Under the pieces are notes generated by a model that saw nothing but the letters and a program-made list of their open reading frames with translations, ran no database searches and was not told the origin of the DNA. The translations under genes and the position numbers were made by a program. Positions 36,535 through 38,962 of a stretch of DNA of 64,000 nt are shown here, in pieces (position 1 is the stretch's first letter; each line of letters starts with the position of its first letter). This DNA is from Paracoccus sp. JM45 (GTDB lineage: Bacteria > Pseudomonadota > Alphaproteobacteria > Rhodobacterales > Rhodobacteraceae), in the NCBI RefSeq assembly GCF_003590715.1, contig NZ_QQVY01000003.1, positions 186,001 to 250,000 on the forward strand, written 5' to 3'.

Positions 36535-37524
36535 TCAAACCTTCGGCGGAAACAAGCGGTCCAGCGCAATGTCCAAGGGCGCCGGATCGTCCAGCGACAG
36601 ACGCACCGGCAGTGCCATGACCTTCATGCGGAAGGATCGCGGCAGACGGGCGGCATCCTTTTCGGTGGTGACCAGCTGCGCACCCAGCATCCGCGATTCC
36701 GTTTCCAGCCGCGTCAGCAGGGATTGGGTAAAAGGCTGGTGATCCTCTAGCGGTTCGGCGCGGATCAGATCGGCACCAAGGTCGCGCAGGGTGGTAAAGA
36801 ATTTCTCGGGGTGGCCGATACCTGCAAAGGCCAGAACGCGGTGGCCCTGCCAGTTGATGCCGGTCTGTAAGGGTGCCAATTGCCCGCGCAGATGCGTGGG
36901 GGCCGCCTTCGGGGTGGGAAAACCCGCCTGTGCGGCGTCAGGGCCGATCGACAGCAACAGATCGGCGCGGGCCAGCCCTTTGGCGACAGGTTCGCGCAAA
37001 GGACCGGCAGGCAGGCAAAGTCCGTTGCCAAAGCCCTTGGCCGCATCCACCACGACCAGCCCCAGATCATGCGCCAGCGCAGGATCCTGAAAGCCGTCAT
37101 CCAGAATGACTGCCTGCGCCCCCGCCCGAACAGCCGCCTGTGCACCGGCCAGCCGGTCGTCGCTGACCCAGACAGGACCGAAGGCGGCCATCAACAAAGG
37201 CTCATCCCCTGTCAGGGTGGCATCATGCTGGCCTTCTTCGACGCGCAAAGGGCCCTTGGCGCTGCCGCCATAACCGCGCGAAACGACATGCGCATCAATC
37301 CCACGCGCAGCCAGCAGCATCTGCAGATGGATCACGGTTGGGGTCTTGCCTGTCCCGCCCGCATTCAGATTGCCAACGCAAAGGACAGGCACACCCGCAC
37401 GGGCACGTGCCCCGCCCGCCAGCCGTCGGGCAGTGGCTGCGGCATAGGCGGCACCAAGGGGGGCTAGAAGCCGTGCCTTTAATGTCGCGGGTCGGATGAA
37501 CCAGAAAGCGGGGGGCTTGTTCAC
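36535..37524 (-). CDS. lpxK: Tetraacyldisaccharide 4'-kinase LpxK
   Basis: Phosphorylates the 4' position of the lipid A precursor at the inner membrane. The protein is 329 aa from a GTG start that overlaps the waaA-like stop as GTGA; the kinase Walker motif NAGGTGKT is at residues 54-61. An N-terminal amphipathic/hydrophobic region ([20 protein letters not shown]) anchors it. The segments [38 protein letters not shown] and [13 protein letters not shown] are typical. Confidence 0.94.
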
Positions 37525-38717
37525 GGGGCGGTCCTTTCGGCGTCCTGTCCGGCCTGCAGCACGGATTGCACGGCACGGGTGATGGTGATGGCCACATCCG
37601 CGCCACCGGTGCTGACGGTCCATGCGTTGCTGGCAAGGGCGGCGATCATCTCGGGCTGGGTCAGTTCGGTGATGGTGACGGCCAGATCCTCGGGGGTGCG
37701 GACCTTTCTGGCGGCATTGGCACCGTCCAGCTGTTGCCATTCGGTGGCAAACATCCCGCTTGCGGGGCCGTGGACAATGGCCGATCCAAGGGCTGCGGGT
37801 TCAAAGGGGTGACGCATGGCGTTTTCTTCCCCCGCAAGGGTGCCGCCCATAAAGCTGACGGGGGCCAGGCGGTACCACAGGCCCATTTCGGTCGGACCGT
37901 CTGTCAGCAGCACCTGAACCTCGTCGCTCAGATCCTCATCCTCGCTTCGGCGGGCGACAGTCATACCAGCTGATTCGATTTCCAGCGCCAGCAGGTCGAT
38001 TCGTGCTGAATCGCGCGGGGACAGGATCAGCAGCGCGCGATGGGAATGACGCAGGGCGGCCTGATGGGCGGCCAGAACCGGCCCTTCCTCGGATTGCGGC
38101 AGGCTGGAGGCGAACCACGCATGGCGGCCATTCATCTGCTGGGCCATCGAGGCGCGTTCGGTTTCCGAACAATGCAGCGGTTCGCGGATTTCCGACACAG
38201 GGCCGGTCATGCTGATACGGCTATGGTCCAGCGACATCCGTCGGGCAATCTGCATGCTGGCGGTATTGGTCAACATGACCGTCGTCATCAGGGACAGCAA
38301 TTGGCGACGCATGGCAGATTGCATGCCCCAACCAAGATCGCGGGATCGCAGACGGAATTCCGCCATAACCAAAGGAATATTGCGGGCATGGGCGGCCAAG
38401 ATCAGGGCGGGTGGCAGTTCCGTGCCGATCAGCAGGACCGCAGCAGGTTGCGACCGGTCCAGCAACTGCGCCGAGGCTTCGGCATCAAGGCCCGCATTGT
38501 CGCCGTCAGGGTCGGGAATGCGGATGATCCGCAGGTCTGGGCGGGCTTGGGACAAACGACGCAGGATCTGCGTTTCAGCCCGCGCCGCATCGGCAGAGAC
38601 ATGCATGACCAGCCCCGGGCCGGAACCTGAGGGAATCACGGGCAGGGCGGGATCGGTTCCATGCCGGGCGCGCAGATGCCACCACAGCGCAAGTCGACCC
38701 AGCCCCGCCCCTGGCAT
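37521..38717 (-). CDS. WaaA/KdtA-like glycosyltransferase, divergent N-terminal half
   Basis: Related to Kdo transferase, which adds Kdo to lipid A precursor. The C-terminal half is clear: [36 protein letters not shown]. In the N-terminal half the usual HAxSVGE motif with the essential glutamate is replaced by [11 protein letters not shown] (about 38-48), and ETELWPN reads GTELPPA. The N-terminal membrane anchor is also short. The gene lies between DUF4170 and lpxK, the normal lipid A context, so it may be the working Kdo transferase in altered form or a paralogue with another role. 398 aa. Confidence 0.8.
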
Positions 38718-38962
38718 TATTTACCCAGTTCTTCGGTCGGGCTGACTTCGCGTTCCTCGTCGCGCAGGCGGTGAAGATGCGCGATAAAATAGCGGGTATG
38801 GGCGCTGTCCACGGTGCGCTGTGCCTCGGCCTTCCATGCGGCATGGGCGGCGTCGTATGACGGGAAAATGCCGACCATATGGATGTTATCGGGGTCGCGG
38901 AACTGGGTTCCTTGCGGATCGACAAGCTCTCCGCCGAAAACGAAATGCAGACGCTGGGCCAT
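38717..38962 (-). CDS. DUF4170 family protein
   Basis: An 81-residue soluble protein (LHFVFGGELVDPQGTQF, then MVGIFPSYDAAHAAWKAEAQRTVDSA) of the DUF4170 type, commonly found before Kdo transferase and lpxK in alphaproteobacteria. The function is unknown. ATG 38962 has a perfect GGAGGT site. Its stop overlaps the start of the waaA-like gene (TAATG), so it heads the lipid A unit. Confidence 0.85.
   Translation of the reverse strand: MAQRLHFVFGGELVDPQGTQFRDPDNIHMVGIFPSYDAAHAAWKAEAQRTVDSAHTRYFIAHLHRLRDEEREVSPTEELGK

Follow-up and report, generated by a model that had tools for sequence, protein, structure and literature searches.

The gene at positions 37521..38717 on the minus strand of the window (the whole analysed stretch of 64,000 nucleotides from Paracoccus sp. 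JM45) raises the question of whether a WaaA homologue that lies in a lipid A operon and lacks the catalytic glutamate can still transfer Kdo. Two answers had been proposed in the original prediction: either catalysis uses another acid, or the gene is a neofunctionalised paralogue and another gene provides Kdo transfer.

The divergent WaaA and its predicted fold

The open reading frame is intact and encodes a divergent WaaA (GT30-fold) protein of 398 amino acids. Its predicted place between DUF4170 and lpxK was confirmed. The gene of a DUF4170 protein of 81 amino acids lies upstream (38717..38962, minus strand; PF13773, 9.8e-25), and lpxK, encoding tetraacyldisaccharide 4'-kinase, lies downstream (36535..37521, minus strand; PF02606, 1.1e-94; TIGR00682, 198.6 bits against a cut-off of 91.95). 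The three genes form one overlapping unit on the minus strand. The stop codon of the DUF4170 gene overlaps the ATG of the divergent waaA in the sequence TAATG, and the stop codon of the divergent waaA overlaps the GTG start of lpxK in the sequence GTGA. The closest named loci are from Paracoccus, with identities of 81–82%. PF04413 matched the window protein with 1.8e-11, which is above the cut-off yet partial, as this N-terminal Pfam model is covered at profile positions 81–174 of 179 alone. With the NCBIfam WaaA models, the window protein obtained 26–127 bits (best 127) against cut-offs of 363–617. The genome's own canonical copy obtained 176–242 bits, also under these cut-offs, and a canonical operonic protein with 249–389 bits missed them as well. 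The NCBIfam equivalog cut-offs were therefore dropped as a test of function, because canonical copies fall short too and the two forms are not separated.

An AlphaFold2 model of the window protein, calculated with an input alignment of 76 sequences, had a mean pLDDT of 95.1 and a pTM of 0.88. Its best fold match was WaaA of Aquifex (2xci). In the fold comparison (VIA) with WaaA (Aquifex 2xci; Acinetobacter C-domain 4bfc), Z was 27.7 with 4.7 Å over 329 residues, and for the C-domain Z was 25.1 with 2.0 Å over 190 residues. Judged from this predicted model, the window protein belongs to the GT30/WaaA fold family. The GT-B fold is also common to the VldE-type pseudo-glycosyltransferases, of which chains appeared at Foldseek ranks 34 and 42, and the likeness of VldE to the window protein is one of fold only. 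VldE catalyses a non-glycosidic coupling.

Loss of known active-site residues in the window protein and its relatives

Residues are numbered here as in Aquifex WaaA, and their roles follow section 14 of a review (PMC6286764). In that enzyme, E31 is the probable base, G30, E98 and K162 are important residues, and E98 together with K162 has been suggested to position the donor. The CMP phosphate is held by R212 and N273, while E276 contacts the ribose and the backbone of G248 contacts the cytosine (PMC6286764). The window protein has its fold, operon place and descent in common with WaaA/KdtA (CMP-Kdo:lipid IVA transferase, GT30). Unlike WaaA/KdtA, it lacks the acceptor-site residues G30, E31, E98 and K162 and the donor-site residues G248 and N273, and keeps two of the eight (R212 and E276). 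At the position of HAASVGE it reads HVSADA, with G30 and the catalytic glutamate E31 gone. ESELWP is changed to GTELPP, in which E98 is lost and W102 (Aquifex numbering) is replaced by proline, and the region of K162 reads TGPVSE, with the lysine gone. The original prediction of a missing SVGE-type glutamate and an altered ETELW was thus verified in the protein. However, its description of the C-terminal donor-binding half as standard did not hold. R212, E276, and the serine and last glutamate of the STHxGE motif remain there, whereas the threonine and histidine of this motif, H213, G248, H272 and N273 are gone. When the four CMP contacts (R212, G248, N273 and E276) were tested together, the window protein was found to lack G248 and N273.

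The same positions were compared in 87 divergent and 79 canonical proteins. G30 and E31 are each kept in 6 of the 87 divergent proteins versus all 79 canonical ones, E98 in 13 versus 76, K162 in 1 versus 76, and G248 in 26 versus 79. R212 is kept in 9 divergent proteins and absent in 78, versus 79/79 canonical. N273 is kept in 14 and absent in 73, versus 65/79 canonical, the position being threonine in 13 of the 79 canonical proteins. E276 is kept in 59 and absent in 28, versus 79/79 canonical. Over all 87 divergent proteins, 0–5 of the eight residues are kept. The apparent matches at E31 (6) and E98 (13) were inspected singly; both residues occur together in one protein, where the surroundings are degraded. 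The change at the SVGE site is clade-wide, and chance variation of the motif was ruled out by the counts at E31. Since E31 is missing in 81 of the 87 divergent proteins, the window protein included, the motif changes are not a sequencing error. A pseudogene or sequencing error was further excluded by the intact reading frame and by dN/dS values well below 1. At an E value of 0.001, PF04413 was still matched by 84 of the 87 proteins.

Conservation of at least 70% within the 87 divergent proteins was found in 88 columns. A single one of these columns, H226, was flagged as differing from a residue that the canonical operonic proteins conserve well, there usually proline. The most constant columns of the divergent proteins (R198, W201, A217, R227, G279, R283, P304, G311, G317 and W366) are mostly common to the canonical operonic proteins. 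No new conserved acid replacing E31 or E98, and no new acid/base constellation, was found among the 87 divergent proteins. The suggestion that catalysis uses another acid is accordingly not borne out by the column comparison. An active glycosyltransferase with a changed donor, acceptor or both, which would for example add another sugar to a lipid A precursor, also has to be weighed here. The predicted GT-B fold is intact, the gene is located in the lipid A operon and is under purifying selection, and E276 and the glutamate of STHxGE are present in 59 and 82 of the 87 proteins, respectively. However, the base and the phosphate- or donor-binding residues have no conserved replacement, and the loss of E276 in 28 proteins would be odd if one activity were common to all. 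We consider such an enzyme unlikely, although it is the strongest of the rival readings. From the two retained glutamates, some ligand binding may remain in the divergent proteins, and the loss of the known catalytic residues does not prove that all activity was lost.

Occurrence of canonical and divergent copies

The search of the genome for a second, canonical waaA was successful. A second GT30 with the canonical motifs HGASVGE and EAEFW is present on contig C1, and its sequence suggests that it is the enzyme performing Kdo transfer. It is neighboured by DUF1178, an amino acid kinase with ACT domains (putative aspartate kinase) and a PEP-utilising enzyme with a GAF domain; relatives of these three were found beside the elsewhere copies in 10, 6 and 5, respectively, of 16 loci compared. 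Of the 88 family genomes in which the operonic copy is divergent, 81 carry a canonical-scoring GT30 at another site (PF04413, at least 105 bits); where the operonic copy is canonical, a second GT30 match was found in 0 of 14 genomes. The Fisher p value for this comparison is 2e-12 with the relatedness of the genomes ignored, and because the divergent state arose once on the tree, the co-occurrence does not represent many independent events. E31 is kept in all of the 37 elsewhere canonical proteins that were read. The paralogue alternative was therefore upheld as far as another canonical gene is concerned, in this genome and in the 81, but its new enzyme activity was not. The sequences would be better explained by a protein that lost catalysis and kept its fold than by neofunctionalisation to a new activity.

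Of 101 genomes of the genus, 98 carry the divergent form at E <= 1.1e-114. The exceptions are G001 (rated 100% complete, 270 contigs) and G017 (71% complete), which have a canonical match only, and G213, which has a fragment. A set of 37 genus genomes contained a strong GT30 in every case (split in two in G029 and G031) and a second, weak GT30 in 34. Among the 20 genus loci fetched, the divergent form was accompanied by DUF4170 in 20 and by lpxK in 19. In the family sample, DUF4170 was found in 106 of 149 genomes, and the operonic sorting covers these 106; the other 43 lie outside it, and some of them match the divergent profile strongly (G130, 541 bits). The DUF4170 gene is adjoined by the divergent form in 88 of the 106 genomes (G180 included despite its degraded motifs) and by a canonical GT30 within 2.5 kb in 14. 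As for the rest, two loci end with the contig (G191 and G082), G119 has no operonic GT30, and in G161 no GT30 was found anywhere. In G119 (L244), DUF4170 is directly followed by lpxK with no GT30 between them, and a canonical copy lies elsewhere. G119 and G001 indicate that the divergent gene is dispensable in places. For the class outside this family, 24 genomes were covered; a single GT30 is present in 20 of them, and E31 is kept in all 20.

Some loci showed further arrangements. G161 (L218) is a single contig rated 100% complete, in which DUF4170, kdsA, a kdsB-like gene and an ELM1-family match are present; no GT30, LpxK or LpxC match was found in this genome. In L268, L269 and L270, tandem pairs of GT30 genes lie beside a putative NeuC-type epimerase gene, and the second copy of each pair has a low canonical-profile score with the GE motif classed as kept. 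In L262, L263, L264, L265 and L266, where the operonic WaaA is canonical, a gap of 0.2–0.8 kb separates the DUF4170 and GT30 open frames and possibly leaves room for a further gene.

Seven of the 88 divergent-bearing genomes (G203, G085, G189, G092, G184, G176 and G097, with completeness of 99, 99, 95, 93, 83, 94 and 100%, respectively) have no canonical GT30 match. They bear on a further explanation, in which the divergent protein would be a Kdo transferase working without a base, as proposed for KdoT, and perhaps adding a second Kdo. KdoT of Acinetobacter (ELM1-like) is reported to work without an identified enzyme base (PMC12856342), and has an SRRT motif as a feature. It has the GT-B fold in common with the window protein, but is of another family. 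From its ELM1-like label, KdoT would fall in PF06258, a model with no match in the window's own genome, none in the seven (0/7) and matches in 2 of 31 genomes scanned. Besides the KdoT precedent, the explanation is favoured by the seven genomes themselves, in which the divergent GT30 is the only one, kdsA is present in six (not G176) and a kdsB-like match in all seven. These kdsB-like matches fall short of the kdsB cut-off, like those of 26 of the 30 genomes matched in that search, and may represent a related CMP-sugar synthetase. On the other side, the CMP phosphate contacts R212 and N273 are absent in most divergent proteins (N273 being threonine in some canonical ones as well). Moreover, 0–3 of the eight residues are left in the divergent proteins from these seven genomes, which is within the range of all 87 and speaks against regained Kdo transfer. 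A base-free Kdo transferase is therefore very improbable.

Of the seven genomes, G085, G189, G092 and G097 have LpxK, whereas Pfam found none in G203, G184 and G176. At the loci of G203 (L276) and G176 (L230), the divergent WaaA and DUF4170 are kept, with no lpxK found downstream, and LpxC is present in both genomes. In G184 (L222, 3489-4257), a degenerate LpxK homologue without the P-loop GGTGKTP lies directly downstream of the divergent WaaA, and LpxC was not found. The same kind of homologue, also without GGTGKTP and directly downstream, was observed in G202 (L277, 3062-4144). This genome (84% complete) has LpxC, no canonical GT30 and no DUF4170 match, and is outside the 88. The divergent GT30s of G203, G176, G184 and G202 obtained 389–482 bits on the family profile, three of the four being among the rows used to build it. 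Neither LpxK nor canonical WaaA seems to be a required partner in these four genomes (83–99% complete). Since they retain the divergent form although no intact LpxK and no canonical WaaA were found, it is there not merely a subunit of either. A general need for LpxK as a partner was also considered, and is unsupported in view of G203 and G176.

Selection, descent and possible role

The dN/dS of the divergent gene was 0.105–0.340 in 22 pairs and that of lpxK from the same loci 0.085–0.230; the relatives were picked for closeness, and some pairs share a row. The value of the divergent gene was above that of lpxK in 18 of the 22 pairs. The divergent gene is thus under purifying selection, which is somewhat looser than that on its neighbour. 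The looser selection recalls a slowly decaying remnant that would be retained mainly through translational coupling to lpxK. The stop/start overlaps on both sides in the window, the very weak copies (e.g. L209 and L213) and the loss of the gene in G119 agree with such a remnant. However, dN/dS is far below 1 in all 22 pairs, the divergent form is kept in nearly the whole genus, and it persists in G203 and G176, where lpxK was not found. We regard decay as quite unlikely.

In a 76-row IQ-TREE phylogeny ('quick' search, SH-aLRT support only), the 25 divergent proteins formed one clade (SH-aLRT 99). This clade is nested in a 43-row clade (SH-aLRT 99) together with 18 canonical operonic proteins of the family. 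The rows comprised 24 of 168 divergent proteins plus the window protein, 22 canonical operonic proteins, 16 of 37 elsewhere proteins, the canonical copy of the window genome and 12 of 20 other-family proteins. Four canonical operonic rows (L066, L079, L264 and L265) fall outside the operonic clade on this tree, the L211 row is long, and 11 rows have an odd letter make-up. A 247-row FastTree phylogeny placed the divergent rows in the same neighbourhood, with 0.997 for these rows together with four canonical operonic ones and a weak 0.174 for divergent monophyly. The tree joining the divergent proteins with all sampled elsewhere canonical proteins was rejected (p-AU 0.022), and that joining them with the canonical clade of the genus itself was not (p-AU 0.38). 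The elsewhere copy may have arisen through transfer or through an ancient duplication.

Taken from the sequences, the most probable explanation is that an ancestral operonic WaaA turned into a pseudo-glycosyltransferase while another copy does the Kdo transfer. The gene would be the ancestral operonic waaA of this Rhodobacteraceae branch. A second canonical waaA elsewhere would be able to carry Kdo transfer; the co-occurrence is observed, and its causal role is inferred. The operonic copy would then have lost its catalytic residues and many CMP-Kdo-binding ones, probably once, in a common ancestor, after relief by the other copy. Purifying selection appears to have preserved the fold of the operonic copy, its place in the operon and a set of structural residues. 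In terms of its sequence and predicted model, the window protein displays the signs of a pseudoenzyme, namely lost catalytic residues, purifying selection and a retained fold. Its present role would most likely be that of a pseudo-glycosyltransferase with a GT-B fold at the membrane surface. There it may bind an intermediate of lipid A synthesis or a partner protein, and would not transfer Kdo. More tentatively, a dead WaaA could have been kept across more than 80 sampled genera as a non-catalytic protein of the lipid A pathway (a sensor, scaffold or intermediate carrier), independent of its own Kdo transfer, of LpxK and of canonical WaaA. This broader proposal is possible, and we hold it with less than even confidence.

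No paper on WaaA as a pseudoenzyme was found, and no title among the matches listed was on this topic, subscription journals being mostly outside the scope of the search. Among the matches listed, DUF4170 was named in one paper, on fungal peptides. Rhodobacter, Paracoccus and Roseobacter are absent from the main text of PMC3087551 in its available part.

The place and the family matches would label the operonic gene waaA, and most of the known active site is missing in 88 of the 106 DUF4170 genomes of the family. The Kdo transferase of those genomes is likely a different gene. If the role of the divergent protein is non-catalytic, it would be a part of the lipid A pathway not described for E. 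coli. The divergent form is carried by Rhodobacter capsulatus (L165) and Paracoccus denitrificans (L157), which are both workable in the laboratory.
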